Below are positions 7,697 through 62,445 of a stretch of 64,000 bases of DNA, piece by piece; the stretch's first letter is position 1; the number at the start of each line of letters is the position of its first letter. Both the position numbers and the translations under genes were made by a program. Location: contig NC_089272.1 of NCBI RefSeq assembly GCF_963678975.1, positions 42,537,391 through 42,601,390 on the forward strand, given 5' to 3'. The DNA is from Dysidea avara (lineage: Eukaryota; Porifera; Demospongiae; Dictyoceratida; Dysideidae). Below the pieces are notes generated by a model. That model had not been told where the DNA came from and made no database searches. It saw nothing but the letters and a program-made list of their open reading frames with translations.

Positions 7697-7714
7697 GTAG
7701 GCGTGACAATAAAT
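7697..7714 (+). repeat. Repeat R1, copy A, segment 2 (18 bp between two insertions)
   Basis: GTAGGCGTG (the 9-bp target duplication) continues as ACAATAAAT, matching R1 copy B at the same place (GTGACAACAAATCG, about 55012-55025). GACAATAAAT at 7705-7714 recurs at 12662-12671, where R1 resumes. Confidence 0.7.
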
Positions 7715-7727
7715 AAATAAATACCCA

Positions 7728-8672
7728 ATGGCGGTTGTAGTGTCTCAAAGTGCTCTCTCTCCCGACCATCCTATTGACGTTATTTGTGGTTCCTTACCGG
7801 CCAAACTGTTCCCTGATAAGCTCAAGGATGGTTTCAGTCGTTGTATTTCGTTTACTGCCGGGAATGGGTCGTTTATGACCCCTTGTAAGTTTGAGCGTCG
7901 CGCTGGTCGCTCTTCATCCAAGAACTGGAAGAGAACAATTCGTTACGCAGGGAAACCCATTGGTGACTTTCTTCAGTGTGTTGTGAATCAGAATGGCAAA
8001 AAGGAAGTTAGTTTTGTCACCTCCAGCCCGCCATTGTTACGCTCGATAGTCGCTGACACAGCAAGTCTTACTTTGTCGGTATCTATGTGTTCTTCAGCTG
8101 GTCGTGGCCCAGTTGTCACTTCAGCAATTCCTGATAAAGCCGTATCCACTTCAACAAGTTCTGTTAAAGTTGTGTCCTCTCCAGCAAGTCCTGGTAAATG
8201 TGTTCCTATTCCAGCAAGTCTTAAAGTTGTGTCTTTTCCAGCAAGTCCTGATAATCCTGTTACTTTTCCAGCAAGTCTTAAAGCTGTGTCCTCTTCAACA
8301 AGTCCTGTTAATGTTATCACTATTCCAGCAAGTCCTGTTAAAGTTGTGTCCTCTCCAGCAAATCCTGATAAAGTTGTTCATTCCCCAGCAAGTCCTGATG
8401 AAGTCTTGTCCTCTTCAGCAAGCCCTGATAAAGTTGTTATTCCAGTAAATGTTGTGTCCTCTATGGCAAGTCCTGATAAAGGTGTTACTATTCCAGCAAG
8501 TCCTGATAAAGCGTTGTCCTCTCCAGCAAGTCCTGATAAAGTTGTTCTTTCTCCAGCAAGTTCTGATGTAGTTTTGTCCTCTTCAGCAAGCCCTGATAAA
8601 GTTGTTACTATTCCAGCAAGTCCTGTGCCCTCTCCAGCAGTTCAGACAGTCCTGATTTGTGTCGCACTATGA
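7728..8672 (+). CDS. SAND-domain ORF1 of an RLE-type retrotransposon, with 10-residue repeats
   Basis: 314 codons from the ATG at 7728. Residues ~15-85 read as a SAND domain, a DNA-binding fold known from Sp100, AIRE and DEAF-1: DVICGSLPAKLF, then FMTPCKFE, then the signature SKNWKRTIRYAGKPIGDFL with KNWK at residues 65-68. Residues ~130-310 are about 17 imperfect 10-residue repeats (PASPDKVVSS type), encoded by a 30-bp tandem repeat at about 8125-8640. The frame is open throughout. Its TGA (8670-8672) overlaps the ATG of ORF2 (8669-8671) as ATGA, so it is probably the first ORF of the element. A captured host exon is the other possibility. The role would be nucleic-acid binding by the retrotransposition complex (inference). 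Confidence 0.75.
   Translation: MAVVVSQSALSPDHPIDVICGSLPAKLFPDKLKDGFSRCISFTAGNGSFMTPCKFERRAGRSSSKNWKRTIRYAGKPIGDFLQCVVNQNGKKEVSFVTSSPPLLRSIVADTASLTLSVSMCSSAGRGPVVTSAIPDKAVSTSTSSVKVVSSPASPGKCVPIPASLKVVSFPASPDNPVTFPASLKAVSSSTSPVNVITIPASPVKVVSSPANPDKVVHSPASPDEVLSSSASPDKVVIPVNVVSSMASPDKGVTIPASPDKALSSPASPDKVVLSPASSDVVLSSSASPDKVVTIPASPVPSPAVQTVLICVAL
8125..8640 (+). repeat. 30-bp coding minisatellite
   Basis: About 17 tandem copies of a 30-bp unit (CCAGCAAGTCCTGATAAAGT core) inside the SAND ORF. The period is a multiple of three, so the frame is preserved and a Pro/Ala/Ser-rich repeat is encoded. Some units are shortened by whole codons. Confidence 0.85.
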
Positions 8673-11600: not shown

Positions 11601-11882
11601 ATAGCTAAGGACAATCAATACCAGGACATTGTGAATGATAATGGAGGAGATTTTATCCCTCTTGTATGTGAGACCTTTAGTGTTTGGTCACCATATGCCC
11701 TATCAATTTTAGGATCCATAGCTGACAGAACAACTGTTAGAAACGGTTTACCTCGAAAGTTTGCTAGGCGCCAACTTCTCCAGCAACTGTCTGTGACTTT
11801 GTGGAGGTACAATGCGAAAATGATACTCCGCCAGTATTCGCTTACTGCTGAGGACGAATTTCCTGACTTTGACATTGGTTAA
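8669..11882 (+). pseudogene. ORF2 of RLE-type retrotransposon: zinc fingers, reverse transcriptase, restriction-like endonuclease
   Basis: One frame from ATG 8669 with TAG at 10214-10216 and TGA at 10805-10807, then a frameshift near 11350-11380 into the frame ending at TAA 11882. The N-terminus has Cys/His pairs (CSSCSLLWQHINSVH; CSVPSCRWATHERF). RT: GTSPGASGLRAQHLLDAV, motif A ALLKIDMKNAFNE with Asp present, motif B TGVQQGDPLGPLLFS, motif C as WYLDDGTFIG rather than YADD, motif D NLSKCELYWP. The C-terminus (11380-11860) reads RTGDIYHSDFHLGRPAYFDL, then FIPLVCETF, then LLQQLSVTLW; R-GD ... FDLS ... E is consistent with a PD-(D/E)XK nuclease. Related C-termini occur at 24.05 and 47.55 kb. Confidence 0.85.
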
Positions 11883-12034
11883 GTTAACTACGTAGGTAGT
11901 AATAAGTATATAGTTAGGTAATAAGTAGTAGCAAGAGTTAATAGTAGTATGGTGTAGTTTTCAGTATGTACGTGTGTTATGTCCCATATTCTATAAATTT
12001 TTTTTGAAAACAACTAGAAAACAACTCGGTCGAG
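11883..12034 (+). other. 3' untranslated region of the RLE element and 5' leader of the MED17 fragment
   Basis: AT-rich with repeated AGTAGTAATAAGTA-like words, ending in TTTTTTTTGAAAA (about 11998-12009). The copy at 47.5-48.1 kb also ends near ATTTTTCAAAAAG, so the element's own 3' end is probably here. AAAACAACT occurs twice just before the MED17 ATG at 12035. Confidence 0.5.
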
Positions 12035-12661
12035 ATGGCCAGTTCGTTTAAAGTATCTGTGGAACCCTTAGCCACTGCTAGAATAAAACAGATTAATTAT
12101 GAGGGCGAAGAGATTTATCAAGAGAGGCCTACTTCATCACAACTACTCACCGAGCTAGTGCAACGGGTTGACTTTAGCGCTGTAGAGAACAAAGATGATT
12201 CAGAGACTGGTCCGCCTGCGAAGAAATCTGTAGATAGGTGGCCATGGGAGGAGACTCACTCAAAACTGAAGCAAGCTTTGATGGAAGTTAATGTGTTGGC
12301 CGATTTACTACGAATGGCACAAGATCACAAACACTATGTGATGCTTGACCCAGTACTACAGGAACCCAGAACTGTTAAGTCCTCATACCAACTGTATATC
12401 AAAAAGAAGGCTATTGCTGCTGCTGCAGACATCTTACAAGAAGGTGCAAAGAATTTGAATGCATTTCTTGGGGTATCAAACAGTGACCACTTCCACAAAG
12501 CTTTGTTAGAGATGAGAAAAGGGTGGAAATTACGGAGAACCAACACTGGGATTGTAGGAGATCTCAATTATTATTCTGGGCGAGTTAGTCATTTGCCATC
12601 AACATTTGGGGTACACAAGGGAGACAGCGACCAAGGTACAATTGTCATAACTGTTCCAAGA
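12035..12661 (+). pseudogene. MED17: Mediator complex subunit 17, N-terminal ~208 residues only
   Basis: An open frame starts at ATG 12035 in a good initiation context. Recognised by collinear MED17 features: SVEPLATARIKQINYEG, QRVDFS, RWPWEETHSKLKQAL, YVMLDPVLQEP, YIKKKAIAAAADILQEGAK, MRKGWKLRRTNTGIVGDLNY and GTIVITVP. Animal MED17 is ~650 residues; this matches roughly the first third, with no intron and no stop. The frame then runs into repeat R1 (from 12662) and ends artificially at 12703. MED17 is a head-module core subunit needed for RNA polymerase II transcription. A truncated end inside an apparent insertion suggests a retrotransposed or transduced copy, not the working gene; a real exon 1 separated from the rest is the alternative. 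Confidence 0.8.
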
Positions 12662-12840
12662 GACAATAAATCGATCTTGCTTTATGCGGATAATCGGTCG
12701 TAACTCATGAACTGTTCATCACCTTTTCACCACACTTGGTACTAGGATTCATTATTAGACTGCCTTTAAGTGTGCCAAGTTTCAAGACGATCGGTTAAAC
12801 GCGTTTGTGTTTATAGCAATTTTTTAAAGTGCGAAAAAGA
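12662..12840 (+). repeat. Repeat R1, copy A, segment 3
   Basis: Collinear with 55015-55195 of copy B (AAATCGATCTTG, ATAATCGGTC, TGTGCCAA-TTTCAAG-CGATCGG, ATAGCAATTTTT). It ends at AAAAAGA (12834-12840), the 7-bp target duplicated by the LINE that follows. Confidence 0.85.
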
Positions 12841-13210
12841 TCGTCAAGCAGATAAATTGATATTTCAAGAGTTATGTTCAACAGTGTTTAAATTGAATAT
12901 TACTTTGACGAAGACAGCTCGCCTTGGTAAGAGAATAGAAGACAAGCCGAGACCCTTACTTGTTTGCCTTAGTGACGAATCTGACAAAATTGAAATTCTG
13001 TCAAGGTCTGGAATGCTTCGCAAACAGGAACAATATAGTAGGGTATGTATTGCACCTGACAGAACAAAGTTTGAGCGCCAGAAACACCATAAATTAGTGG
13101 AATAAATGAAACGCAGAAGACAGAGTGGTGAAAAGAATCTGGCAATCCGGAATGGTAGACCTCGTTCCAGTTCGTTTTCCCCTAATGACACCTCTCAGCA
13201 CTCCTCATAA
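12841..13210 (+). pseudogene. LINE ORF1 C-terminal fragment (nucleic-acid-binding protein)
   Basis: Frame reading RLGKRIEDKPRPLLVCLSDE, then MLRKQEQYSRVCIAPDRTKF and, after a TAA at 13103-13105, KNLAIRNGRPRSSSF to a stop near 13210. The arrangement (GKR...RPLLV.L...PDRT) resembles the RRM-like part of CR1/L2 ORF1 proteins, also seen in the LINE at 46.0-46.7 kb. The N-terminus is missing because the element is 5'-truncated. Confidence 0.6.
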
Positions 13211-13229
13211 TCCACATATAGTTGCAGCA

Positions 13230-16077
13230 TTACAGTGTAATGCTCATAGTTTTGATAACTGTCATCTCCCATACATTAACAAGATTTCTCCACACAATAG
13301 AGCACGCATAAACCACATACCTCATCCACCTAAGGTTCCCCAAATTAAAAAATCAATGAAACTGGCAATTGTTAACTGTCGCAGTATTGTCAATAAGCAT
13401 GCTGAGCTTGAAGCTTTACTTCATGTACATAACTTAGACTTACTTATTGGCACTGAATCACACCTTGATGAAACGGTTATATCCTCAGAAATTTTCTCAT
13501 CACAATAATATACTACCTACCGTCATGACAGAAACAGGCATGGTGGCGGTGTGTTCATACTGGTTAGAAATGACATTCCATCCTCCCAAATTCATGTATC
13601 TGAATCGATTGAGCAAACTTGGGTTCACATCCACAAGGATCACAAGCAGAGTATCATACTGGAATCAGTCTACTGTCCACCAAATTCTCCTAGTACAGTC
13701 TTAGATGAATTAAAAGATACTATCAGTAACATCAGAAACTCCCATCCTACTGCTAAACTACTTCTTGGAGGCGATTTTAATTGTCCAGGAATTGATTGGC
13801 ATCATAAAACATTATTAGATTCATATGTACCTGTGTCCTTTAGGGAGAAACTCTTGAAGTGGTAGAAGAGTTTCATTTTGAGCAACTGGTTACCACTCCT
13901 ACCAGGGGCCCTAACATCCTGGACCTATGTTTTGTTAGTCACCCAGATCTTTTTACCTTGTGTCAAACTGCTCCTGGTATTAGTGATCATGATTCAGTTA
14001 TAGTAGAATTTTCTACTCAAATTAAGCTAGTGAAGAAATCTCCTAGAGAAATCTTCTTATACCATAAAGCAAACTGGGACCTTATACGAGATAAAATGTG
14101 CAGCATTAATGAAAGATACTTTGATTTAAACTCTACCAATGAAAGAAGCGTAGAGGATAACTGGACATTCTTTCATGATCATTATCTTCAACTTATAGAA
14201 GAACACGTCCCTAAAAAATCTCTCAGTACTAAGTCTCATTTACCCTGGATGAACACTACTTTAAAACGATTGCTCAAGAAAAAGCAACGGACATATAATC
14301 GTGCTAAGAAGTACCAACGTGCAAAGGATTGGGATGAATATAAAAGATTACAGTATCAATCTAAAAGTATTATGCGCCAACAACACAAGAGGTACCTATC
14401 CAACTTAATAAATCCACAAAACAACTTGAAATGCTTTTGGCATTATGTTAAAGGTAAACACCAGGACAATGTAGGAATTGGGGCATTAAAGAATCAGGCA
14501 AATGATATGATCACCAATTCTATAGAAAAGGCTGAGATTCTAAATAAGCAATTTGAGTCAGTATTTACTGCTGAGGACACAAGTAGTATTCCAGATACTG
14601 GTACCTCTCCTTACACATCCATCCCAGATATTGATATTACACTCAATGGAGTGAGGAACCTCCTTTTAAAATCCAACGTGAATAAATCTGCAGGTCCTGA
14701 TAACATACATGCTGCTTTTTTGAAGAATACTGCTATTGAATCAGCTCCTATATTGACTCATTTATTTAAGCAATCATTAAGAAATGTTATAGTACCAGTC
14801 TCTTGGAAACAAGCAAATGTCACTCCAGTATATAAAAAGGGGGATAAGACAGACCCCGGAAATTACCGCCCAGTATCTCTCACATCACTTGTATGCAAAA
14901 CTCTAGAGCATGTCCTAGTAAGTCAGATAATGAAACACCTCGAGTTAAATCAGATACTAGCTGATGTACAGTATGGATTCAGATCCAGTCGATCATGTGA
15001 AGCCCAACTCTTCCTCGCAGTAGATGATTTGGCAAGAGCAGTAGATAATAAACTTCAAGTTGATTTAGCCATTTTAGACTTTGAAAAGGCATTTGATAAA
15101 AAGTTGCTCATACCAGATTGACCCATAAATTAGATTACTATGGTATAAGAGGTGATTTACTGCAGTGGACCCAATCCTTTCTTACTAACCGTGCACAGAA
15201 AGTTGTTGTTGATGGTGTATGCTCTTCACCTTGCAATGTCACATCAGGAGTACCACAAGGATCAGTGCTTGGTCCAGTTTTATTTCTTATCTACATAAAT
15301 GACATAACAACCAATGTTCACAGCCAGCTTAGATTCTTTGCTGATGATTGCCTAGTTTATCGCCCTATTAATTCTCCAGAAGATCATAAGATATTTCAGG
15401 ATGACCTTGACAAGGTAACAACATGGGCTGATATTTGGCAGATGAAGTTCAATGTCAAAATTTGCTGCATCCTACGAGTATCTACTCTACACTCTACTAG
15501 TAATTTTACATATACAATGTAAAGAATCCCTCTACAAGTTGTCGAAAAACATTACTATCTGGGAGTGCTTTTAGATAGCAAGTTATCATGGACCGCTCAC
15601 ATTAACTCGATTTGCAACAAAGCAAATCGACTACTAGGATTTCTACGCAGAAACCTCCATCATTGTCCACCTCACTTAAAAGAGCGTGCTTATAAACAGA
15701 TTGTTTTACCAACTATTGAGTATTGTTCTGCTATATGGGATCCATACCAGCAAACATCCATCCATAAGCTAGAAATGCTACAGCATCATGCTGCACGGTT
15801 TGTATTAAACAAACCTTGGAGGAGGAACCACAGAGACAGTATAACCGACATGCTAATGACGTTGAAATGGCCATCGCTTGAGAATCGTAGAAGACAGTCA
15901 TGTTTAATTCTGCTATTTAAGTTCGTAAACAAGTTGATACATATTCCTACCCAGTATTTGCCAGTGCCATCCCCCTTAACAACTACCAGGGCTAACCACG
16001 ATCAAAAGTTTATGCGACAGTATGACAGAATGGACCGATATCTTTATTCATTTTTGCCAAGGACAATTTCTGACTGA
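13230..16077 (+). pseudogene. LINE ORF2: APE-type endonuclease and reverse transcriptase
   Basis: Endonuclease from about 13357: KLAIVNCRSIVNKHAELEAL, IGTESHLDE, (TAA at 13506-13508), HGGGVFILVRND, LLGGDFNCPGIDW, frameshift near 13860, then PGISDHDSVIVEF. RT: KSAGPDNIHAAFLK, VTPVYKKGDKTDPGNYRPVS, motif A LAILDFEKAFD, a frameshift in the A-run at about 15098-15102, motif B SGVPQGSVLGPVLFLIYIND, motif C RFFADDCLVYR, a TAA at 15520-15522, then YYLGVLLDSKLSW and YCSAIWDPYQ. Catalytic residues are intact but at least two in-frame stops and two frameshifts make this copy dead. Confidence 0.9.
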
Positions 16078-16241
16078 AATAACTTGAGTATTGAGAATTT
16101 AAGTAATTGTAATCTAGATTTTTTAAAGGATTATTTATCTAGTTAATCACTTACATGACCTTTTTTTGTACATTAGCGTTATACCCTTGATGGGTTTTGC
16201 TAATCAATAAATAAATAAGTAAAATAAATAAATAAAAAAGA

Positions 16242-18898: not shown

Positions 18899-21420
18899 AT
18901 GAAATGTGGGAGGCCTAGTAAAAAGGCTCAGTCCAAAAGGAAACGTACTTCCTCTGCTCCACCGGTGTTGATATCTCCCAAGAAATGCTTAAAATGGACT
19001 GAAGAATCTATGCTAGCAGCGATTAAAGCTGTTTGAAATGGTTACACTGTTAACAGGGCTGCTATCAATCATGGCATTCCCAGAATGACGCTTCAGGAAA
19101 GGCTTTCTGGTGGAGTTATACATGGAACCAAACCTGGACCTCTCCCTTGCTTAAACAAGAATGAAGAAGCCAAGTTGGCAGAGTTTTTGGAGGTAGTGTC
19201 TGATGTTGGGTATGGCAAAACTAAAAAGCAAATCAAAAGTATGGTTGAGTCTGCAGCTTGTGACAAAGGAGTGTTAAGAAAAGAAAAATCACTGATGGAT
19301 GGTTTCGCCGCTTCATGGAAAGACAACCTCAGCTGAGATTGTGTAAAGGAGATAAAACAGCCTTTGTACGTATGGATGCTATGCAGCTATTATTTAACCT
19401 TGTATTTATTGGTTGAACATGACTTGATGGACTGACCTAAACAAATATATAACATTGATGAGTCTGGGATGCCTCTTGACCACCAATCTCCTCGAGTTGT
19501 GGCAAGAAAAAGAAAGAAAAAGTGAGGTACTGTACCTCAGGTAATAAATCACAAATTACAGTAGTGAGATGTGTTAATGCTATTGGCCAAGCAATGCCAC
19601 CATTTATCATTTTTGATGTAAAAAATCTTAATATGGATTGGACTGAGAGGAGGTCCCTGGTACCACCTATGGATTAAGTGAAAATGGATGGATTGATATG
19701 GAGCTTTTAAACTATGATTTTTCAATCACTTCCTGCATCCTGCTGGAGCAAGTCGACCCTTACTGCTTCTGCTTGATGGCCATAGTTCCCACTACAATCT
19801 AGAAGCAATTACCCTGGCAAGAGAAAATGGTGTCATTACATTCACTCTTGTGCCACATACCACACATGAATTGCAACCCCTTGACACTGCTGTTTTTGGA
19901 CCATTAAAAAACTGGTATGAAGAGTGCCATATGTATGTCCAATCACATCCAGGAAGAATCATAACAAAATGCCACTTTAACGAGGTCTTTGCTAAACATG
20001 GCTGAAACGTATGGTGCCAGCTAATCCAAAGACAGTTTTAGATCATGATCCTACCAAGGAGAAGTCTACGGAAGTTGATACTTTGTCAATCACCAGTTCA
20101 CAAGGTGAACACAGCACTAATGAAGTAGCAACTTTTACTGCAGAAGAAGAGGCTCTTTTCGTTAAACGGTATAATAATGGATATAACATACCTGATCCTC
20201 ACTATGTATGTTGGGTGGAACTAAATCATCATGAAGATAGATTGATTGACCATTTGAAAATGTAACACCTTTGGAACACTGCAATATGGATTCATGATTG
20301 CCTCCAGTCACAGAAAGTGCTGTTACAACCCCTAATGCCCTGCCTTCAGAAAGTTCAAGCCTAACATCAAGCACTGAATCTTTATCTCCCCATTCAAGTA
20401 CAGTACACCTACTACTATACCAGACTCTAATCACACTTCTAGAACTTTATCTTGTTCAACTAAAAGTAGTGAACCAACCATCATTGTTGTTCCAGAGTCA
20501 CCACCATCCTTTTCTGGCTATGTGGTGAAAACTTCTGAATCTATCACATCTACTGCTACACCAGCATCTTGTCATGAATCAGGTATGCTTGTGGTTTTGA
20601 TTATCATAACCTAGCATTTATATGAGGTTGTTAATCTAGAGTCACCACTATCTTGCTTTTCTGGTAATGCTGCAAAACTTCAGTATCTACTGCATCTACT
20701 GTTACATCAGGATCAACACCATCTCGTCTTGAATCAGGTACGCTTGTAGATTTGATTATCATATCCTTGTATTTTTATACTGATTTTCTGCAGTTTGTAG
20801 CAATGCACATTCACCAGTATCTGATGCTATTTCCAAGTATCTTGTTCAGTATGTGCCTCCTCTCCCAGTTTAAAAAAATGCTGTGTCCATCAGAGTAACT
20901 GGATCGAGGGTGTTGACTAGTACAGAAGGTTATGCTATGTTACTAGAGGAAGAAGAGAAGAAAAGGAAGGAAAAAGAAGAAAAAGAAAGGAAAAACAAGA
21001 AAGAATAGAAAAAAATGTGAAAAGGAAGAAGCTTCTAAGAGGAAGGCTGAAGAAAAGGCTAAGAAATCTGCAACAAAATCTGCAACGAAATCCAATACCA
21101 CTACCAGAAAAAGGCGTAAGGGAAAGGCACAGAGTGGTGATGATACATTGCTGACATCAACCTCTCTTGATGAGATGACACAAGATTCAAGGCCAGAAAA
21201 CACACAGAATGAGTTGCTACTTCTGCTGTCAATGATCAAGATACTGATCAAGATTACGCAGGTGTGAATGTTTGGAACTTATGAGGATGATGTCAGGATG
21301 GGCAGTGGTGCAAAATGGGCAAAGTGCGTGTGTAAAAGGTGGATTCATGTTGACTGCATCAGTAAAACTGCCCTAGATGAATCTGGAGAAGAAAGGACTT
21401 GTTCTAACTGTGTGGTTTAG
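18899..21420 (+). pseudogene. Tigger/pogo-like DDE transposase with C-terminal PHD-like zinc finger
   Basis: ATG at 18899 follows a splice-acceptor-like CTTTTGTAG. The N-terminus is basic (GRPSKK, SKRKRT), then a CENP-B/psq-type helix-turn-helix region (WTEESMLAAIKAV, IPRMTLQERLSG, GYGKTKKQIK). A TGA lies at about 19034 and frameshifts near 19295 and 19520. Catalytic residues: D1 in YNIDESGMPLD (19457), D2 in LLLLLDGHSSHY (19775), D3 in HELQPLDTAVFGPL (19883), giving 35 residues between D2 and D3. Further on: FVKRYNNGYNIPDPHYVCW, a Lys/Glu-rich stretch (20943-21080), and a Cys/His finger at about 21270-21418 (KWAKCVCKRWIHVDC, CSNCV). The copy is dead, with many stops in the linker. Confidence 0.8.
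20488..20795 (+). repeat. ~155-bp tandem duplication inside the Tigger-like element
   Basis: The segment ending CATGAATCAGGTATGCTTGT with TTTGATTATCATA after it (20570-20612) recurs as CTTGAATCAGGTACGCTTGT with TTTGATTATCATA (20726-20765), preceded each time by GAGTCACCAC-ATC and a Ser/Thr-rich coding-like stretch. Each unit looks like a short exon piece plus a GTATG/GTACG donor-like intron start. Confidence 0.65.
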
Positions 21421-23104: not shown

Positions 23105-24035
23105 CTATTTCTTTTTCTCCCATACATAAATGATATCAATGATAACATCCAGAGCCAGATACGTCTCTGCTGATGATTGCTTAGTTTATAGAGTGATACA
23201 CACACCACAGGACCATGATATTCTTCTCCAAGATCTTAGTAATCTAACAGTTTGGGCTAGAGATTGGCATATGGAATTTAATGTCTTCAAGTGTAGTATT
23301 CTTCAAGTAACTACAAAACAACACATAAGTACTTATGAATACACCATGAATGGCACCACACTAAATATTGTTTCTCAACATCCATGTTTAGGTATAACAC
23401 TAGATCACAAACTATCCTGGCATTCTCACATTGAAACACTCTGCCACAAAGCCAATCGCACACTGGGATTCCTTAAACATAATATATACAACCTTCCTAG
23501 ACATCTTCATGAGCGTAGCTATAAACAACTAGTTTTACCAATGCTTCATTACTGTTCCTCCATCTGGGACCCTTACCATCACAATGCAATCAAACAACTT
23601 GAAATGATCCAACACTGGCAGAGCTGCACGGTTTGTCACAAACAACCCATGGCGAAGAGACCACCACGACGGTATTACCGCAATCCTAAATTGGCGAACT
23701 CTACAAGATTGACACAAAACAATAGACTAATCCTTTTATTTAAATTAGTAAATAATCTACTTATTGTTCCACACCAATACTTTTTATCTCCATTCTTTCC
23801 AAACACTAGAGCTAACCATCAATTAAAATTTTCTCACTACCAATCAAGAACAGAAATCTATCGAAACTCCTTTTTCTCCAAGACGACTATTGAATGGAAT
23901 TCCTTACCCTATCCTGATCTTGATGAGATTGATGCTGCAGATACATTTAGGTCGTACTTATTTACTTAATAATGTAATTGTACATTAGCGTGTTGCCCCT
24001 AAGGGTTTTGCTAATCAATAAATAAATAAAATATT
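23105..24035 (+). mobile_element. CR1/L2-type LINE, truncated to the 3' end of RT
   Basis: Starts just before RT motif C and ends in the TTAGC 23985-23989 / GCTAA 24010-24014 hairpin with inner CCC 23997-23999 / GGG 24003-24005, then an (AAAT)n tail. The same family as 12841-16234 by protein and by tail. Confidence 0.85.
23130..23969 (+). pseudogene. LINE ORF2 C-terminal fragment
   Basis: 279 codons: SADDCLVYRVIHTPQDHDIL (motif C; the residue before ADD is changed), WHMEFNVFKCSILQV (motif D), CLGITLDHKLSWHSHI, HKANRTLGFLKHNIY, MLHYCSSIWDPYHHN, and the C-terminal TRANHQLKF, FFSKTTIEWNSLP, AADTFRSYLFT. The segment at 23615-23715 is out of frame relative to the relatives (two compensating shifts). 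It cannot make a functional RT because motifs before C are absent. Confidence 0.82.
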
Positions 24036-25470: not shown

Positions 25471-25755
25471 CTAGTTAGCTCAGTACCTGGTCTCTTTCTT
25501 TAGGCGTTTCTTGTGCTCTTCGTAGTCTGTCGCGCTCTCTCCTTCTAACCAACCTTTCTTCTCGTTCAGCCATCAAACCACGTGCTAAGCCATGTGGAGT
25601 AAAAGTACACCGCTCATGAAATTTTCGTGAAGCAGCGTGGAGCAACCCGTTTTCTTTCAGTATATTTTCGTTAACGCGACGTACGTACCATTCACTAACA
25701 GTGTGGGGAAATCCGTTTTCGTTCGGTAAATTTTCGTGAACGCGACGTACGTACC

Positions 25756-27366
25756 TTCTGCTCTTCGTATGTGGTGGGACCAAGTTTCCTCACTGGGCCC
25801 TAGCTTTGGTTACTTCCCTAATGCAAAGAAGACATGGCTTGTTACTAAGACTCAGTTTTGCTCTGTTGGTAAGGAATTGTTTCATGACACAGCTGTAAAT
25901 GTTACATCTGATGGCAGGCCTCATCTTGGTGCTCCAGTTGGCACCTCTGAGTATGTGGAAAGATTTACTTTTGATAAGATTAGCCAGTGGGTTTCTGAAG
26001 TTAATACACTCTCCTCCATCGCTATCTCCCAACCTCATGCTGCTTATACATGTTTTACTCATGGACTATTTAGCCGTTGGCTGTATGTAACACGTACAGT
26101 CCCTGATACATCTTCTAGTTTCCAGTCACTCGAGAAAGCCTTATTGACAAAGTTTATTCCAGCCTTGACTGCCCTTGACCCTCCTGGTGCTCTTCAACGT
26201 TCACTCTTTGCCCTTCCAACTAGATTTGGTGGTCTAGGCATTGTTGCACCTGATTCTTTATCATCTATTGAGTTTTCTGCTTCAATGTATGTCACAGCAC
26301 CCTTACGATCACTCATTTTATCACAGAATTTTGGCTATACTGCCGATACTCGTTGTAGTCTGTACTCCCGTAAGCTTGAAATTAAACAATCCAAGACTAT
26401 CAATTTGTCCACTCTTTCTAAGGAACTGTTCTCTAAGCTTACTCCCACTCTTCGGAGGGCTGTTACTTTAGCACAGGAAAAGGGTGCTTCTAGATGGCTT
26501 ACTGCCCTACCTGTGCAGGAACACGGTTTCTCCCTACACAAGACTGCCTTTCAAGATGCCCTTGCTTTGAGGTATGGATGGATGCCCTCTCGTACACCTT
26601 CCCACTGTGCGTGTGGTACCAACTTTTCTGTTGATCATGCCCTATCTTGTCCAAAGGGTGGATTCCCTTCAATACGCCACAACGAAGTGAGGGATATCAC
26701 AGCTGAATTGTTATCTGAAGTGTGCCATGATGTGGAGGTTGAGCCTCATCTGCAGCCTCTAAGTGATGAAAGATTTCAACAGAAGACAGCCAACACTCAG
26801 GATGGCGCACGCTTGGACATTGCCATGAATGGATTTTGGGGTGGTCGTTATGAAAAATGTTATACGGATGTCAGAGTTTTTAACCCACTTGCACCATCCA
26901 ACAGTGGAACCACCCTTCAGTCATGTTACAGGAAACATGAAATAACAAAGAAGAGAGCTTATGAGTTGCGAATCCGTGAAGTGGAACACAGTTCTTTTAC
27001 CCCTCTAGTGTTCTCTGCTTCCGGGGGAATGGGCCATGAAGCCAGTGTCTTTTACAAGCGATTGGCGAGTTTATTGTCTGACAAATGGAATGACCCTTAT
27101 GCCACAGTACTAGGATGGATTAGATGTAGATTGTCGTTTTGTTTACTGCGTTCAGCAATCCAATGCATTAGAGGAGCAAGATCTTCACAAGGTCGTTACA
27201 TCAAAAGTGCTCCTGTGGCCTTGGTGCAATCTGAGACTCAGTTTTTGATTTAATTGTTTAACTGTTATTTGTATGTTCTTCTTTATATCGTAAAAAAAAA
27301 ATATATATATATATATTTTCAATAAAAAATTAAATAAATAAATAAAAAATAAATAAATAAAATAAA
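25756..27366 (+). mobile_element. RLE-type retrotransposon, 5'-truncated in RT, long A-rich tail
   Basis: Begins inside the RT thumb and ends with an AT-rich 3' end and (AAAT)n tail at 27322-27366. It sits exactly between ...ACGTACC and ATTCACTAAC of adjacent ~66-bp repeat units, as in the uninterrupted junction at about 25686-25700, so the target duplication is very short or absent. The open ORF suggests a recent insertion. Confidence 0.8.
25769..27253 (+). CDS. RLE retrotransposon protein, C-terminal half (RT thumb, zinc knuckle, restriction-like endonuclease)
   Basis: About 494 codons from the first ATG at 25769; the frame is open further upstream through host-repeat sequence. It begins SSLGPSFGYFPNAKKTWLVT, the segment following the RT catalytic motif. 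A CHHC-type knuckle, CACGTNFSVDHALSCPKGG, is followed by IRHNEVRD and then the nuclease: EPHLQPL, GARLDIAMNGFW, YTDVRVFNPLAP, YELRIREVEHSSFTPLVFS, GGMGHEASVFYKRLASLL. The RLD...DVRV pattern fits a PD-(D/E)XK restriction-like endonuclease, which nicks target DNA in R2/CRE-like elements. The RT palm is missing, so it cannot act alone. It is the cognate C-terminus of the class at 1-1459. Confidence 0.82.
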   Translation: MWWDQVSSLGPSFGYFPNAKKTWLVTKTQFCSVGKELFHDTAVNVTSDGRPHLGAPVGTSEYVERFTFDKISQWVSEVNTLSSIAISQPHAAYTCFTHGLFSRWLYVTRTVPDTSSSFQSLEKALLTKFIPALTALDPPGALQRSLFALPTRFGGLGIVAPDSLSSIEFSASMYVTAPLRSLILSQNFGYTADTRCSLYSRKLEIKQSKTINLSTLSKELFSKLTPTLRRAVTLAQEKGASRWLTALPVQEHGFSLHKTAFQDALALRYGWMPSRTPSHCACGTNFSVDHALSCPKGGFPSIRHNEVRDITAELLSEVCHDVEVEPHLQPLSDERFQQKTANTQDGARLDIAMNGFWGGRYEKCYTDVRVFNPLAPSNSGTTLQSCYRKHEITKKRAYELRIREVEHSSFTPLVFSASGGMGHEASVFYKRLASLLSDKWNDPYATVLGWIRCRLSFCLLRSAIQCIRGARSSQGRYIKSAPVALVQSETQFLI

Positions 27367-42257: not shown

Positions 42258-45200
42258 CTACAAGTGGTTCAGGTTTGAGGTGGGTGGACGTGACTGGTGG
42301 CATCTTGAGCAAGGACAGAGATAGTGCAATGAGCAATTGTTGTTATCTTCAAAGTTAGTTATAAAATGATCCCAGAGAAAAGTTTTTAGTTTTGATTTTA
42401 GCAGAGGAAAAGTTAGATCCAAGTTAAGGATAGGCATGGCATTCCAGAGAGTTGGTAATCTATGGAAATAAGAATGTCTAGATACGTTGTTTAAATGATG
42501 AGGGATGATCAATTTGTTGCTGGTGCCGGATCTAGTATTAGCTGAGCTGAAGTTGATATGATCATGAATATTGAACTGTTTAGATTGTACCTTGATTGAT
42601 TTGATTGCAAATAATATATCTTGTAACTCAAACAGGTACATCAGAGGAAGGATCCTTAGTTTTACTAGACGGGTTTTGTAACTACTGGTGTAATCATTTA
42701 ATAGATACTTAGTGGCACGGCGCTGGATTTGCTCGAGAGATAAAATGTCTTTCATCAGGTGTGGACGCCATAGTTGGGTGCAATAGAGCAGCCGAGATCG
42801 AACCATTGAAATATATAATGTGACCAATGTAGAAGTAGAATGGGTAGAAGCAATAGTACGACGTATTAGTCCCAATACCTTGTATGCACGAGCAGAAATT
42901 GATTTGTAGTGTTTGTCCCAACTTAGATTCTCAGATAATATGAGCCCTAAGTCCTTGTGTGAGTCATTATGTGGTATAGTAATATCCGAAATGGTGTAGG
43001 TGGTTTCTAACTTGCATTTAAATGATAAATGTACGAATTTTTTTAGATTAAAATTCAGATCTGTCTCTCTGGACCAAGTAAATAAAGCGATGATATCTTC
43101 TTGCAGAGTGATGTAGTCAGATGTAGTACAGATGTGCATGAAACACTTGGTATCATCGGCAAATTTTAGGAGTTGGCTTTGGTGTATATGTAATAGTTGT
43201 ATCATGTACCCGAGTGATTTGCCTGATATGTACACCCAAGCTCGAGGGCCGTTAGGCCCGAGAGCGTGGATGTACATATCAGGCAAATCACGAGGGCACG
43301 TGATACAACTGATATGTACCATGTAGGCTAATAGCCTAATGTGGTGGGCGACTAATCACCCAAGCCAATACGAGGCAACCCGCTGGATTTATTATATAGA
43401 GAGTCTTGTAAAATTCGATTATGGGTCAGCAGCAAGTAACGTTGCAGTTACGTTTGTTAACATAAACGGGAAAATCCTATGAATATCACGGAAACACTCA
43501 ATTTTGCCATTTAACAATTGTTTCAAAGTTGCTACATCGTTTAACCACTGTTTACAATGTTTTCTAAACATAAGCTTCGCTGTAGAGTGGTTACCTAGTG
43601 ATATACGAAAAGTGGGCGTGGTACGTAATCAAACACGCGAACATGCGATTGTAAATTAACCATGACACTAGTTCTCACCTTAAACTTCCGTTTGTCAACT
43701 CATAGGGTGGTAAGGGTGTCGAATCGCCTTCGTATGAGTGCTGTAGAATGCAAAATCGGGTTCATGGTTTTCATCACGTGAGTAATAATGAACTCCCACA
43801 ATCGAATACTGCCAGGATTCTTATAAAAACAAACAACGTTACCTCATCAGATATATCAAGGCCATGGTACATTTAAATGTATCATGGCCAGCCATGGTTT
43901 ATTTTAAATGTACCATAGCCAGCCATGGTTTAACTTAAATGTACCATGGCCAGCCAGGGTTTATAAGATATGTACCCTGGAATTTGGCTTTGAAGTTAGG
44001 TGGTTTCATGGTACATATGATGTCATGTCATTTATATAAATTAGAAATAGCACGGGGCCAAGTATGCTGCCCTGGGGCACACCTGAGAGAACTGGCAGTA
44101 AATCGGAGTAACAGTTGTTAATGCAAACACGTTGATATCGATCAGTCAGATATTCCCGGAACCAAGCCCAGAGTGTACCAGTTATTCCAGCAGACCAAAG
44201 CTTGTTGAGCAAGATGGCATGAGATACGGTATCGAAGGCTTTACTGATATCGAAGTACACCACATCAGTTTGTGAGGGGCTGTTAATTATGTAGTCTAGG
44301 AAAATTAGCATTTGTTGTAAGGTTGAACAGTTTTTAGTGAAACCAAACTGAGAACAACTAATATATTTACTAATGTGAGTGATAATTTTGTTGTACATTA
44401 GTCTTTCAAGAACTTTAGATGTGTTGGATAGGAGCGAGATGGGACGATAATTTCTTACAGAACAATGGTCGCCAGCTTTGAAGATAGGTATTACTTTGTG
44501 AATTTTCCAGCTAGAAGGTAAGGTGGCATGGCGTAGTGACATGGAAAACAGATGATGTAGTGGCTCACACAGAGGTCCAGCACAGCTGTGAAGTACTTTA
44601 GGAGCAATTCTGTCAATGCCGCAAGATTTCTCAACATCTAATGAAATGAGAGCTTCAAAAACATCAGTGACAGTAATAGTTATGGAGTTTAAGGATTCAT
44701 GTGTGGCTGGGTAATTGTCATGGTTTGCTGGTGAAGATGAATTGTGAAAAACAGAGTGGAAATATTGATTAAACAAATTGGCCTTGCTGGAGTCAGTGCT
44801 AGCAGATGAAGAGTCAAAGTTCATGATAGGAGGATTAGTATTAGACTTAGTGATAGATTTTAGATATTTAAATATTTTGTTGTTGCTAGTTGGGGCAAAA
44901 TTGTTTATGAGGTGAAATTCATAGTTCTGTTTGGCTGCTTTTATTTTGTCTTGAAGAGAGTTCTCAAGGGAGTCAATGATATGGAAAATGTGATATGTTG
45001 GGTGCCGCTTATTTCTACGTTGAAGAGTTCTGAGACGTTTGATGCAGTGCCTTATTTCTGAATTGAACCATATGGGGTGTCGGTCTGAATGAACTTTATT
45101 TACAGGAATGAACAGTTCCATGGCTGTAATTATCTGATATTCAACAATGTGCCATATATACTCAACGTCATCACTTGAATAGCATGATGTAAAGTCAGAG

Positions 45201-45960
45201 CAACATAGGTAGTCATGTAAGCCTTGGTAGTCACCTTTGGAATAACCAAATGTAAAGTAAGTGGTCGGCTTAGAAGACATTGTAGTACTTGTAGACAGCA
45301 AAAAGGTAATGTTGAAGTGATCATATGGTAGTAGTGGAGTTGAATGGACTTGTAAATTGGAATATTGTCATCTAAATTAGTAAGAACCAGGTCTAGTATG
45401 TTGCCATGATTATGGGTAGGTATGTCGATGAGCTGACTTAAACCAGTCTGGAAAACCAGATCACAAAACTGATTGGAAGGAAGAGAATGACTTGACAATG
45501 AGTCCCAGTCTATGTCTGGAAAGTTAAAATCACCAAGAATGATTAATTGATCAGAGGCATTAGATAAATTTGAAAGAAAATCGAACAAGGTTTCATAATA
45601 AGTAGCAGTACTGTTGGGAGGTACGTAAACTGTGCAAACGGTGACAGGATTAGGTAGATTCAGTATGACACATACGGCTTCCAAGTTTACAGGTGAAGTT
45701 AATTTCTGGGAGGAGATTTTGTCGTTGACTGCAATGAGGACCCCACCACCACGAGATTGACGATCGTGACGAAACAGGGTATAATTGGAGGGTAGAATTT
45801 CATTATCAAATATGCTATCGGAAAGCCAAGTTTCTGTTAAGTCAATTATATCAAACCATTTAGAGTAAACTACAGATTGGAATTTCTGGAGTTTATTTAC
45901 TATACTTCTGGAATTGGTATAGAAAAAAGATAGTCATTGAGAGGTAGGTGTGACAACTTC
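42258..45960 (-). pseudogene. LINE ORF2: endonuclease and reverse transcriptase, interrupted
   Basis: Endonuclease: FFYTNSRSIVNKLQKF, IDLTETWLSDSIFD, SRGGGVLIAVND, IILGDFNFPDIDW, and a frameshift near 45300-45345. RT: EKSCGIDRIAPKVLHSCAGP, IHKVIPIFKAGDHCSVRNYR, motif A VVYFDISKAFDTV, motif B SGVPQGSILGPVLFLIYIND (ending at 44006), then the insertion, then motif C LLKFADDTKCF from 43200, DLNFNLKKF (motif D), YKDLGLILSENLSWDKHY, and a Cys/His-rich C-terminus (CPCSRCHQSR). All RT catalytic residues are present, but the frameshift and insertion disable the copy. Confidence 0.87.
43195..44010. mobile_element. ~800-bp insertion in the LINE RT, with a 116-bp palindrome and a tandem repeat at its ends
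   Basis: The LINE reading frame breaks between motifs B and C, where ~200 bp of noncoding palindrome and ~600 bp of other sequence lie. 43195-43310 is a near-perfect palindrome (GATTTGCCTGATATGTACA / TGTACATATCAGGCAAATC; 4-nt loop at 43251). 43855-43990 has 3-4 copies of a ~38-bp unit (ATGTACCATGGCCAGCCATG). Exact ends and target duplication are uncertain. No ORF. Confidence 0.65.
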
Positions 45961-46021
45961 CATTGTAGAATTACTATTAGAAGTGTTTGATACTTCAGAT
46001 CTAGATTTAGGTACAAAGGTT

Positions 46022-46929
46022 GAATCAACTAGTTCACCATGTATTTGGTTTTTAACGTAAATTTTAGTGCCACGAATTTTAATGTGTTTTTATCAGTTCC
46101 TGAACTAATCAGGCTCCAATGTTCCTTTAATAGTAGTTGCTCTCTCAGCTTTTCTTCTTTGCTCATATCCGGTTTGACTTGTGTGCCTTCGGGGATTTTG
46201 GATCTATTGTAAAGGATAGTATTTACATCAAAAGCACGGGATAATTTCACAAGTAGAGGTCTTGGCTTTGTTCTAGTTGAATCGAACTTTCCCAGTCGGA
46301 AGCAGTATCTAATAGACTGTTCAGTGATGTCATTATTTGCTTCCTTCAAAATGTGGACACAACAATCGATATCTGACTTAGTGCGGGCACTCCTAGGAGT
46401 GCCAGTGGGATTCTCTTTGATGCCATAAACCACGACATTGAATTTGCGATCTATGGGATTGTCAGGCACAGCTACATATTTGTTGTTTGGTGAAGGAGTA
46501 GACTGTGATTTGCTGGTAGAAGATTCTGAAGTGATCAGTTGTGGCTCTGGAATGATATGTTGAGTGATACCAACAGTTTCCTTGGGTTGGGGACTTTCAG
46601 CTTTCAAGTCTGTGACTTCTTTTTTTGAGGCTATCAATGGCGGATGTAAGCTCATGTAGTTGCTGCTCTTGAATGGCTAGGCGACAGTGGGGACAGTAGA
46701 ATGGATCATCTCCATCTTGGTAGACTTTATAAAGTGTTTGTGAGAGACCGGCACACTGCCTGTGAATCCAGGCGTTGCAAGTACTTTCACAGTATATGGC
46801 TTCTTGTCCTTCTGCATCTTTTGTGGCATCTATGATAGGGTCCAAACAGATTGGACAGATCGTTGCATCAGAATCACCAGGTGAGTTTGGCGGTGATCGC
46901 TTCCTCTTGGAACGTGGGGTTGTTGTCAT
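46022..46929 (-). pseudogene. LINE ORF1: PHD finger, short coiled coil, RRM-like domain
   Basis: ATG at 46929 (MTTTPRSKRKRSPPNSPG, basic). PHD-type finger: CPICLDPI, CESTCNAWIHRQCAGLS, FYCPHC. A heptad-rich helix follows (QEQQLHELTSAIDSLKK). After a frameshift in a T-run (A on this strand) at about 46620 comes the RRM-like part NVVVYGIKENPTG, RYCFRLGKFDSTRTKPRPLL and EEKLREQLLLKEHW. ORF1 proteins of this class bind RNA and form the LINE RNP. The PHD finger would let it read histone tails (inference). It precedes ORF2 with little spacing. Confidence 0.78.
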
Positions 46930-47115
46930 TTTCCGCCTCAATCTAAATAAAGAACACCATGAAGAAAAAACGAACCTGAAATCACAGTGACTAGCCTTAG
47001 GTGGTACCGTTATTAATAACATGCCACGGTACAACAGCGTCTCAACGTAGTGGCGGAGAACACGAGAGGAAACAGTCCTGAGCAAAAACAGCATAAACGT
47101 TTCCCACAATCGAAA

Positions 47116-47533
47116 GTTGCTTTTGTAGTTGGTGTGTTGCTAAGTTTATGAAGTTTTGCTAAGTTTGTAGTTTGCTAAGTACAGTACAGCTCAAAGGTAA
47201 CGTCGCGCGTACAACACACGCGAGTAACATGTGTGTCGTGTGTCGGAGTCATTCCATTGCAATGTACTGTACAATCATGTGACCTGCGGATGATCGCGTG
47301 GGTGATCACCATCCACGCGAGCGTCACGCGAGGTCAACCCGCACTTAGGTGTAGTTAATTCATGCCGCTTCACTAAATCACGAAAAGTACATAGTTATGC
47401 ATAGCTACGTACCTGTACGTATCATCGGGTTAAATTCTTTAGTGTCACTGTCAGTAGTAGCTAGCACCTGAGTCCAGTTTCGCTGGGCATCAACCCTGAT
47501 ACTAATTCCGCATAGATTTATAGCTATATATTA
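47116..47533. other. CpG-richer spacer
   Basis: Possibly the LINE 5' region (minus strand) up to ~47.3 kb; it contains clustered CG dinucleotides and ACACACGCGAG/GCGTCACGCGAGG words. No ORF. TATATATTAATCTATG precedes the RLE insertion. Confidence 0.35.
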
Positions 47534-58701: not shown

Positions 58702-59147
58702 TAGGGACCCGCCGATTATACTCATAATTTAACCTATTATGCTATGCTGCACTGCTCAAAAATTTACCTATTATGCTTAAATTTATGCTCAATACTTACC
58801 CATTATGCTCAAATTATGCCCAATTATTTATGCCTCAGTTCTCATGCTCTGCTAATAATTTCCAATTTATGGATAAATAATAAGTGGCTGAAGCACAAAC
58901 TTACTTGTCAAAATGCATATCACAGAAAAGATCGATATACTCTAATAGAACAGTCAACTATGTGATTGTTCTATTAGAGTTACTGACTGTTCTATTAGAG
59001 TATATCGATCTTTCTGTGATAGCTATTTTGATAAGCAAGAATTCATACTATTACACAAATATTCTACCTATTATGCTAGCATTATGCTCAATGCTTTCAG
59101 ACACCTATTATGCTCATAATTATGCCAGCATAATCGGCGGGTCCCTA
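58702..59147. mobile_element. 446-bp hAT-like MITE, copy 2 (opposite orientation)
   Basis: Same length and nearly identical sequence to 51155-51600, reversed. 8-bp duplication GAGGTGGG at 58694-58701 and 59148-59155. Only a handful of differences from copy 1, so both are recent. Confidence 0.92.
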
Positions 59148-59374
59148 GAGGTGGGGATTGTTGAGGATTTGCAAATGCGAGAATGCAAATTCCCTGCCCC
59201 TAGGGACAACTTTGAGTTACGAATCCCCTACTACCGTACGCGCGGAAGTTTTCACGGTGTGAAATTTTAGCTTCATCATAACTAAACAAAATTTTCACGA
59301 TTTTATTTTCACGGTTAAAGGAGTTTAGGTTTTCGCGATTTTTCGCGGTTGGAAGTGTTGCCACGTGTTGCGAG

Positions 59375-60823
59375 ATGTCTATGAAAGATATAACTTATTA
59401 TTTTAAGCAAGTTAAACCGAATGTTTCACCAAGCAACGTGTCACAGTCTACTATTGAATGCGTTAAGAGAGAGTTAAAATCAATCTCGAGTCATAGTGCG
59501 AGTTGCAGCCATGGCAATGGACAACAAAAAACTCGTGGTGAATACATCAGGTTGAGTGACGAAGAACGAGCTACCATTGGTGAATATGCGGCGAAACATG
59601 GCCCTGCTGCTGCTATTCGTCATTTTAAGAAAGAAGGAAGTTTCCCGAATTTAAAAGAAGCCGGTGTTCGGGGATGGAGAGATGCTTATCGTCGGGAAGT
59701 GTTCAATCAGTCCAATGATCGAAAACGAGACAGACCAGTGGAAGTAACATAACTTCCACAAAAGCGGCGTTGAAGGCCACTCTTAATAGGGGAGGAGTTG
59801 GAGGAAGAGGTGAAATTGTTTATAAAGGCCTCGCGTGCAGAGGGAACTGTTGTGAATACTGAGACTGTCATGGGCACTGCAAGAGGTGTTGTCATCAGCC
59901 ATGATGCCAACTTGCTTGCTGAAAATGGAGGATACATCAACATAACAAAAGAGTGGGCTCAGCGAGTGCTTCAACGAATGGGTTTGATGAAGCGGAAAGG
60001 AACGATAAAAGCAAAGGTACTGCCATCTGATTTTGAAAAAGTGAAAAGGCAGTTTCTGTTTGATGTGCGCACGATTGTTGCAATGGAAAGCATTCCTAAA
60101 GAACTAATAATCAACTGGGACCAAACGGACATGAAATACGTGCCAGTGTCGGATTGGACTTTTGAAGAGAAGGGAGCTAAGAGAGTAGAAACTGCTGGGC
60201 TGGATGACAAACGGCAAATCACCGTTTTAATGTCATGTGCTATTGATGGAAAGCTGCTGCCTACTCAAGTGATATATACTGGCAAGACTCCTGCTTGCTT
60301 GCCCAAGGTCATATGTCCAAAAGATTGGTATTTGACCTACTCTGAAAACCACTGGTCAAATGAACACACCATGATGGGTTATCTTCATAACATATTACTT
60401 CCATATGTCACAGTGACACGCTGTAATCTGAAGCTGAGCCCAAATCATCCATGCCTCATGATATTTGATTCTTGAAAGGCCAAACTACTCCAGCATTTTT
60501 GGACTTTTTTAGAACAGAACAACATCTTAGTTGTAGAGGTTCCCCCAAACTGCACTGATCGATTGCAGCCATTAGATCTAGCAGTCAACAAACCCTTAAA
60601 GGATCAAATGAAAAAGCAATTCCATCTTTGGTATGCTGGAGAGGTCAAGAAGAAGATGGAAGATGGGCAAGGCAAGAAGGTTGTTGACCTGAAACTCACT
60701 AGGTTGAAGCCACTTAGGCTACAATGGTTGGTAAATGCATGCAGTTATGTGGAATGTAACAGTTTCATTCAGAATGGTTTTTCAGAAGCTGGGATCACTT
60801 TAACTTTGTCTCCATATATTTAA
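59375..60823 (+). pseudogene. Tigger/pogo-like DDE transposase
   Basis: One frame from ATG 59375 to TAA 60823, broken by TAA (59750), TGA (about 59774) and TGA (60473). The N-terminus has a helix-turn-helix-like region (RLSDEERATIGEYAAKHGPA, EAGVRGWRDAYRREV), then KRR near 59770 and an HTH region (EEEVKLFIKASRAEGTVVNT, ITKEWAQRVLQRMGLMKRKG). The DDE domain has D1 in INWDQTDMKYV (60119), D2 in CLMIFDS (60467) and D3 in RLQPLDLAVNKPLK (60575), with 35 residues between D2 and D3, as in the transposase at 18.9 kb. The catalytic triad is retained, but three stops make this copy defective. Confidence 0.85.
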
Positions 60824-61039
60824 CCCAAGCTAAATACTGTTACAGTATAAATACTATTACCACATTATCATGATTCATTATTTGACTATTTTCACTGAAT
60901 AGGAATACAATTATGTTCATGGTTAAATTTTACAATTGACTAATCATATAGTGTTACACTACTATGGAAACAACTCCAAAGTACCACTGGAAAAACACCT
61001 GGTAAGGTGCTCACGCATCAGTAATTCTGTATAGTTCAT

Positions 61040-61805
61040 CTAAAGGGGATCTTTCCCATGTGCAACACTTGTAGCATTAGCAATGGCATACAGGCCACAT
61101 TCTTTTCCTCCCTGTTGCTTCTGCACATTTTTCAAAATAGTAATATTGCTGGGTGAACAGTGAAATTGCTTTTTAAGTAAACACAATGTTGGTTCATCCC
61201 ATTTTGTATATGCTGAATCATATACTGACACCCTTTTGCCAGCTGTACCAATGGTAGTTGCACATATCCAGTGATCTCCACCAGTATGGAAAACCTGTAG
61301 AGCGTTGTGTGTCGGATCTTTGTGGGCTTTGTCGTGCAAGAGTGTGAGACGTAAACCATTAATCTTTGGGAATTTAGCTTTCAAAAGTCTTTGTGCAAAG
61401 TTAATGTGCTTGTCAGAGAGTTTCTCACCACTTCTAAGTATTTCTTTGTCAATATTGGTCAAACTTATGTCTCTAACTTTTACCCATATTTGTGTTTCCC
61501 CACTGACACTGTCATGTGACTCATCCTCATCAATTGGCTCGGTCTTCACTTTTACACCACGAATTGATGCACTGGGCTGTGCACTAACATCTGTATTACT
61601 GGGTTTGCTCCGAGGCTCTGTTTTTACCTCCAAAGATGTGCTACCCTGCGGCTGTGGTGTTGCCAGACTGGCATGGTCTACAGTGCCAACAGAAATTCCA
61701 GCAGCTGTAAGACACAAATGTACTATACTGAAATAATGATATCCTTTACATACCTTGTAGCTCACCAACCCCATCACTTTCTTCACTTAGTAGTTTATGT
61801 GACAT
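61040..61805 (-). CDS. Ulp1/SENP-like cysteine protease (C48 type), two exons, transposon-borne
   Basis: Exon 1 is 61805-61754 (ATG; MSHKLLSEESDGVGELQ). A 49-bp intron (61753-61705) has GTATGT donor and TTACAG acceptor, and exon 2 is 61704-61040. Together 717 nt encode 238 residues without interruption. The N-terminal half is disordered with two VKTEP motifs (sumoylation-like). The C-terminal domain shows the H-D-Q-C order of Ulp1 proteases: GGDHWICATTI (His), VSVYDSAY (Asp), VQKQQGGKECGLYAIANA (Gln, Cys). The substrate is unknown; deSUMOylation is the family activity. It faces the transposase within the same terminal repeats. Intact while the transposase is broken. Confidence 0.75.
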
Positions 61806-61912
61806 CTTCGTTACACTATCCTTTCCAGTAACTTAGTACTAATCATTATTGTAACCTAAATTATAGGCACTTATGTTATTGTAACTTAAACTAGGCACTT
61901 ATGTGTACGTAC

Positions 61913-61984
61913 CTTGTACATTAGCGTAAAAACCCTGTTGGGTGTTTGCTAATCAATAAATAAATAAAAAATAAAATAAATTTA
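61913..61984 (+). mobile_element. 72-bp LINE tail insertion
   Basis: Only the last bases of a CR1/L2 LINE: hairpin TTAGC 61921-61925 / GCTAA 61948-61952 with inner ACCC 61932-61935 / GGGT 61940-61943, then (AAAT)n. Flanked by TACGTAC at 61906-61912 and 61985-61991. An extremely 5'-truncated retrotransposition event, which landed at the 3' end of the HIRAN-like ORF. Confidence 0.82.
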
Positions 61985-62281
61985 TACGTACAAGGCAACT
62001 CCACCCCCCAATTGTGGCAAATGATCTGAATACCTTCTTGGCCCAGTCACTGTGCTTGTGATGGTTCCACCATGTGATAAGAATCTTGTACACATACACG
62101 AGATGGTACGTGGTACATGGCCAACAATGACACCATCCTTTCGCAGCGCAACTGCAAATCGGTCTTCTGAATTCCCGCATTCCCGCCCGCAATTCACAGT
62201 CTCTCCAACTGAAGGATCCCATATATCCTTATAGATGTGGTAGCCATGAATACAACTGGTGAGGGTAAAAGTGCTGGTCAT
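61982..62281 (-). CDS. HIRAN-like domain protein, transposon-borne
   Basis: 99 codons from ATG 62281. Core: CIHGYHIYKDIWDPSVGE, CGRECGNSEDRFAVALRKDG, VIVGHVPRTISCMCTRFL, GTITSTVTGPRRYSDHLPQ. The pattern (E/R.....N..D..AVAL...G..VGH.PR) resembles HIRAN domains, which bind DNA 3' ends in HLTF and Rad5-type proteins. Similar stand-alone proteins are common in sponge and cnidarian genomes. The TAA (61984-61982) is supplied by the LINE tail; without it the frame would run about three codons further. May be a separate gene or an upstream exon of the Ulp1-like gene 180 bp away. Confidence 0.6.
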   Translation of the reverse strand: MTSTFTLTSCIHGYHIYKDIWDPSVGETVNCGRECGNSEDRFAVALRKDGVIVGHVPRTISCMCTRFLSHGGTITSTVTGPRRYSDHLPQLGGGVALYV

Positions 62282-62445
62282 CGAGTGTGCTGATCTACAG
62301 TACTAACTTCTGCCACGTGTAGATAACTAACTCCTATAATTTCCAGCCATCTGTGAAATATTCACGGATTAAATTTTCATGGTTACAGTATCAACCGCGA
62401 AATCCGTGAAATATACATACCGCAAAATTTTCCGCGCGTATGGTA

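Follow-up and report, generated by a model that had tools for sequence, protein, structure and literature searches.

Positions 59234-62443 of the 64,000-nucleotide stretch of Dysidea avara DNA analyzed here (the window; C1:42537391-42601390 of a 550.8-Mb, 108-contig genome) are a single TA-flanked element of the pogo/Tc1-mariner type, bounded by terminal inverted repeats (TIRs). The element is 3210 bp long; its plus strand encodes a transposase and its minus strand the HIRAN and Ulp1-like domains. Its ends form a 37-nucleotide inverted repeat (59232-59268 and 62409-62445; 76% complementary). Read inward, the left end starts CCGTACGCGCGGAA and the right end starts CCATACGCGCGGAA, with TA outside each. 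Each gene starts beside one terminus, such that the transposase and HIRAN-Ulp1 genes meet tail to tail. A preliminary description of the window had proposed that a single pair of termini, flanked by a TA duplication, encloses both a DDE transposase and, on the opposite strand, HIRAN and Ulp1-like sequences; the analysis bore this out, with the arrangement recurring in independent copies.

Two convergent genes within one pair of termini

The transposase gene is broken by three nonsense codons (Table 1). A frameshift was considered and ruled out, as the three pieces share one frame with three stops. The C-terminal piece scored above the Pfam cut-off for DDE_1 (24.1 versus 22) and the middle piece below it (15.7 versus 22), and the cut-off was also exceeded by seven relatives, comprising database proteins without a stated source (P0085, P0086 and P0095) and loci of the same genome (L035, L033, L019 and L042). 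Among the 30 loci surveyed below, all three Asp residues of the DDD triad were present in 26 (the exceptions being L018, L028, L030 and L045) and the spacing was 35 in 28, which lies within the DD29-56D range that the available text of PMC7386202 gives for the pogo superfamily. The label Tigger is not established for the element: the same source gives Tigger a range of DD29-36D, and DD35D suits Passer and Fot no less than Tigger. Structure models of the relatives' transposase matched the SETMAR/Mos1 fold in a fold search, with alignment to Mos1 from residue 49 on. No Pfam helix-turn-helix domain was detected in the seven relatives' transposases scanned or in the N-terminal piece from the window; PF03221, which we take to be HTH_Tnp_Tc5, is assigned to the related transposase P0116 in the list of relatives. 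Searched as a profile against the PDB, the transposase gave nothing relevant.

The preliminary description had counted two accessory genes on the minus strand. Comparison with relatives shows instead that they are one fused HIRAN-Ulp1 gene, with the HIRAN domain N-terminal and an Ulp1/SENP-like peptidase C-terminal, that has been cut by an insertion in the window copy. Relatives of the HIRAN stretch (P0001, P0002 and P0012) continue in the same protein into the residues that head the Ulp1 part of the window, and single proteins of 341 to 381 amino acids hold both domains (P0042, P0065, P0066, P0067 and P0079). Single open frames with both domains are also found in the same genome (L034, 381 amino acids; L033, 397; L031, 428). 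In other families, that of the window included, a short intron seems to separate the two parts. Part of the insertion (61914-61981) matches two other stretches of the window, 16166-16233 and 23978-24034, at 87% and 83% identity, respectively, and both of these look like the 3' ends of non-long-terminal-repeat (non-LTR) retrotransposons. At another locus (L026; C4:20730101-20734516), a tandem repeat of ~120 bp upstream of the peptidase part gives rise to long repetitive frames.

The window copy scored below the Pfam cut-offs for both domains (Ulp1-like, 17.8 versus 20.7; HIRAN, 20.3 versus 24.7). Among relatives, L035 and L033 passed the cut-off of the C48 peptidase profile and P0042, P0065 and P0079 failed it; P0042, P0065 and P0001 passed that of the HIRAN profile and P0079, L035 and L033 failed it. 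Structure models of relatives gave clear fold matches to the HIRAN domain of HLTF and to SENP2/NEDP1, and the catalytic His, Asp, Gln and Cys of the peptidase were kept in 26 of 29 loci, the window among them.

The window copy itself is dead: nonsense codons interrupt the transposase three times and the protease once, and the HIRAN exon contains the insertion. The peptidase stops prematurely at 61040-61042, with homology continuing to 60965, and P0029, which is 98% identical over 270 amino acids, reads through at this point; the copy is therefore dead twice over, through the insertion and through this stop.

Table 1. Features of the element in the window (positions of the window).
Feature	Positions	Strand	Remarks
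Left TA target-site duplication	59232..59233		From sequence; TA flanks also at four close copies
Left TIR, CCGTACGCGCGGAA...	59234..59268	+	CCGTA-starting ends also in relatives
Pogo/mariner-type DD35D transposase gene	59375..60823	+	One frame; nonsense codons ending 59752, 59773 and 60475 (2 TGA, 1 TAA)
Exon 2, Ulp1/SENP-like cysteine peptidase with H, D, Q and C residues	60962..61704	-	Exon borders predicted from homology
Predicted 49-bp GT-AG intron	61705..61753	-	Predicted from sequence and relatives' exon ends
Exon 1, HIRAN domain and linker	61754..62281	-	Start at 62281
Later insertion, ~145 bp, splitting exon 1	61832..61976		Missing from four close copies
Right TIR, inward CCATACGCGCGGAA	62409..62443	-	
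Right TA target-site duplication	62444..62445		From sequence; TA flanks also at four close copies

The gene pair across the genome

The left end of the element matched the genome at 9 places and the right end at 12, and the two were paired at six places, including the window. Four of these are close copies (C1:33.1M, C7:25.7M, C3:16.6M and C1:32.5M) that are 3044 to 4178 bp long, have TA on both sides and flanks different from those of the window, and contain the transposase and HIRAN-Ulp1 in the same gene order. The sixth (C6:18.8M) is more diverged and contains pieces of both genes. Thus, the possibility that other copies lack the minus-strand sequences, which would have undone the preliminary description, was not realized: all six two-ended places keep transposase and HIRAN/Ulp1 sequence. 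Nine matches had one end only; the four that we examined (L006, L007, L014 and L016) lacked both transposase and peptidase within 1.5 kb, and HIRAN was still weakly matched in three of them (E, 7e-5 to 0.003). Another one-ended match, to the left end (C9:9300455-9300535), lies ~3 kb from the degenerate locus L028, which could be a copy lengthened by insertions.

To survey the wider lineage, we started from the related transposase P0086, which gave 91 matches in the genome (1489 candidate places, 90 scored). At 29 of the best 30, HIRAN-Ulp1 followed the 3' end of the transposase within 1.5 kb, in the opposite orientation; L028 was the sole locus without it. From the remaining 61 we sampled about every third, taking 1.5 kb beyond the transposase, and found HIRAN-Ulp1 in 20 of 20 (best E, 5e-31 to 2e-107), with the listed top matches all convergent. 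In total, HIRAN-Ulp1 accompanied 49 of the 50 transposases examined out of 91, although these 50 loci are not independent, including as they do near-identical copies and a pair (L027 and L029) with shared flanks. In that pair, the common sequence extends beyond the termini, and one of the two therefore stems from duplication of the region and not from an insertion of its own. Transposases of the gene-carrying families are as little as 42 to 45% identical to P0086. In L018, a reading frame at ~789-1298 lies just outside the left terminus and, in our impression, presumably resembles another kind of transposase.

Ends starting with CC and flanked by TA on both sides were present at 18 of the 30 loci, which are 2.95 to 3.38 kb long; CCGTA was found at both ends in 17 of the 18, and L030 had one CCATA. 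Four loci (L034, L038, L040 and L041) yielded no more than an internal part of this repeat, L034 even after extension. No ends were read at eight, including the locus of the window itself, whose fetched stretch stops before the right end. Five copies with 98.2 to 99.97% identity (L019, L020, L021, L024 and L025) share one common block bounded by the two termini. Six others with 99.6 to 99.94% identity (L034, L035, L036, L038, L040 and L041) share a block running from the left terminus to the end of the stretch, inside the right repeat; upon extension, L035 and L036 showed a TA-flanked CCGTA end. These two families, each of near-identical copies at unlinked sites, represent recent insertions that arose independently and brought both genes along. 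Both frames are open in L034 and L035, and one catalytic Asp is lost in L041. Some families have moved recently with the active-site residues of both proteins kept, and many diverged families show the same gene pair in the same orientation, inside TIRs where these are readable.

We estimated the ratio of nonsynonymous to synonymous substitution rates (dN/dS) for 22 chosen pairs, 11 between families and 11 within them. Between families, dN was 0.22 to 0.59 and silent sites were saturated in 10 of the 11; for L019 versus L026 (dS, ~2), dN/dS was 0.14 for the transposase and 0.20 for HIRAN-Ulp1. Within families it was 0.18 to 0.90 where defined, with few changes, as would be expected for copies decaying after insertion. 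In trees of 14 representatives, the starred forks were common to both genes except for one starred transposase fork (95/94) that was left open in the HIRAN-Ulp1 tree, and the placement of L031, L033 and L044 was weak or differed between the trees without strong support. The two gene trees are free of strong conflict, and it seems that the HIRAN-Ulp1 gene was acquired once, before the families split.

Elsewhere, scans of a viral contig collection with the Ulp1 part of the window, the HIRAN-Ulp1 alignment and the transposase alignment, and of a genome contig collection with the two alignments, recovered no relatives. Among 120 listed of 533 transposases and 56 Ulp1 matches, equal contig sizes are suggestive of two same-contig pairs in other assemblies, P0087 with P0039 (2635) and P0092 with P0036 (332996). 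These pairs and the database proteins without a stated source hint at occurrence in other species.

Just to the left of the element (58927-59013), a perfect 30-bp inverted repeat with a 27-nucleotide loop sits amid short TTATGC-type repeats. By eye, five long reading frames of the window resemble non-LTR retrotransposons, 29-1486 and 42258-47139 on the minus strand and 7713-11882, 12008-16077 and 25730-27253 on the plus strand; the stretch 16166-16233, which recurs as part of the insertion in the HIRAN exon, lies past one of them. A decayed pogo-like remnant at ~19745-19963 (region 19300-20200) is 25 to 38% identical to the DD35D family over ~45 to 80 amino acids and, in one small contrast to the lineage, has no HIRAN-Ulp1 match nearby in the window. 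Scans of the window for tRNAs and Rfam families were empty.

What the HIRAN-Ulp1 protein may do

Taken together, these results lead us to read the element as a cut-and-paste transposon of the pogo/Tc1-mariner type with two genes, dead in this copy, whose second protein serves transposition at DNA ends or through SUMO, a reading to which we give a probability of roughly 0.72. The HIRAN domain of HLTF binds single-stranded 3' DNA ends. The transposase would cut at TA, and the HIRAN part might then, in the manner of HLTF, recognize 3' ends that are free or single-stranded, whether at breaks made during transposition or at stalled forks. A role of the HLTF domain at forks is described in the available text of PMC4666394. 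Docking of HIRAN would bring in the peptidase, whose targets could be the transposase or host proteins of silencing or repair; by removing SUMO (or another ubiquitin-like modifier) from these, it would favor transposition. From the modeled fold we cannot tell which modifier would be removed. A fuller version, which we put forward tentatively and at somewhat less than even odds, is that this is an old, still mobile pogo-type lineage with an obligatory second protein, in which HIRAN docks at DNA ends and SUMO is removed, and that this counter-silencing or break-handling enzyme was kept through the family splits.

An alternative that we hold to be a serious possibility, likewise a little short of even, is that the target of the fused protein is the transposase itself or repair of the break at the excision site, and not silencing. 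HIRAN is a DNA-end-binding fold, as judged from the models and the available text of PMC4666394, and the Ginger1 paper (PMC2836005), in the part available, proposes that Ulp1 and OTU domains act on repair during transposition. However, the present data do not separate this from an anti-silencing role, and a part for SUMO in transposon silencing is documented in the literature, as far as that was accessible.

It is unlikely, in our estimation, that HIRAN-Ulp1 is a passenger, that is, a gene captured from the host that travels between the termini and does not help transposition. DNA transposons are known to capture genes, and the near-neutral dN/dS within families would fit such an origin. Against it stand the constant place and orientation of the gene across families whose transposases are so diverged, the conserved active-site residues in 26 of 29 loci, and amino acid change between families that is slow relative to the saturated silent sites. 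We give very little credence to the idea that HIRAN and Ulp1 are two separate genes; the window copy does read as two frames, but the two-domain database proteins, the single frames in L034, L031 and L033, and the four close copies without the insertion all contradict it. Least probable of all is a combination of two unrelated mobile elements, nested or adjacent, with the termini of only one, an arrangement that a window rich in retrotransposon-like frames might suggest but that is contradicted by four other copies with the same ends, TA flanks and gene order, by the single TIR-to-TIR block of the five recent copies and by the survey of relatives' termini.

Under the reading of a two-gene transposon whose second protein serves transposition, retention of the fusion across many diverged families would imply that the handling of SUMO or DNA ends in the course of transposition is under selection. 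The element seems to come with a host-tampering protein of its own. It would offer a compact natural system for asking whether transposons actively reverse SUMO-dependent silencing or direct repair. Some HIRAN-protease proteins that stand unannotated in public data may be explained as transposon proteins.

Comparison with known transposons

No description of a HIRAN-Ulp1 fusion in a DNA transposon was found among the literature titles and abstract openings listed, mostly from non-subscription sources and with Repbase not searched. As far as that literature goes, the fusion in a pogo-type element would be new relative to the known Ulp1-bearing Ginger1 and Mutator transposons. The element agrees with the pogo superfamily of IS630-Tc1-mariner (Tigger, Passer, Fot and others; PMC7386202 and PMC7325037, as far as available) in DDE_1, DDD spacing of 35, TA duplication, TIRs, length of ~3 kb and mariner-type fold, but it adds a convergent HIRAN-Ulp1 gene on the other strand, whereas pogo elements are described in the available text of PMC7386202 as having one or two open reading frames encoding transposases. 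In the main texts of these two surveys, as available, the words "Ulp1" and "protease" occur 0 times.

The folds, the invariant Asn and Gly-His of HIRAN and the peptidase catalytic residues are those of HLTF/Rad5 and SENP/Ulp1, but here the two domains are joined in one mobile protein with no helicase or RING part. We know of no HIRAN domain in the Mutator-like elements with Ulp1; these are, like the present element, DNA transposons carrying an Ulp1 domain (mentioned in the available part of PMC2836005), but their transposase belongs to a different superfamily. The same source places Ulp1 domains in both Ginger1 and Mutator transposons and proposes a role for them in transposition. Ginger1 resembles the present element in being a cut-and-paste element encoding an Ulp1 domain (Ulp1 or OTU in Ginger1). 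Its Ulp1, however, is the C terminus of a Gypsy-integrase-like transposase, an arrangement that the present element does not have; here, a separate gene encodes Ulp1 as a fusion with HIRAN, with a mariner-type transposase beside it.
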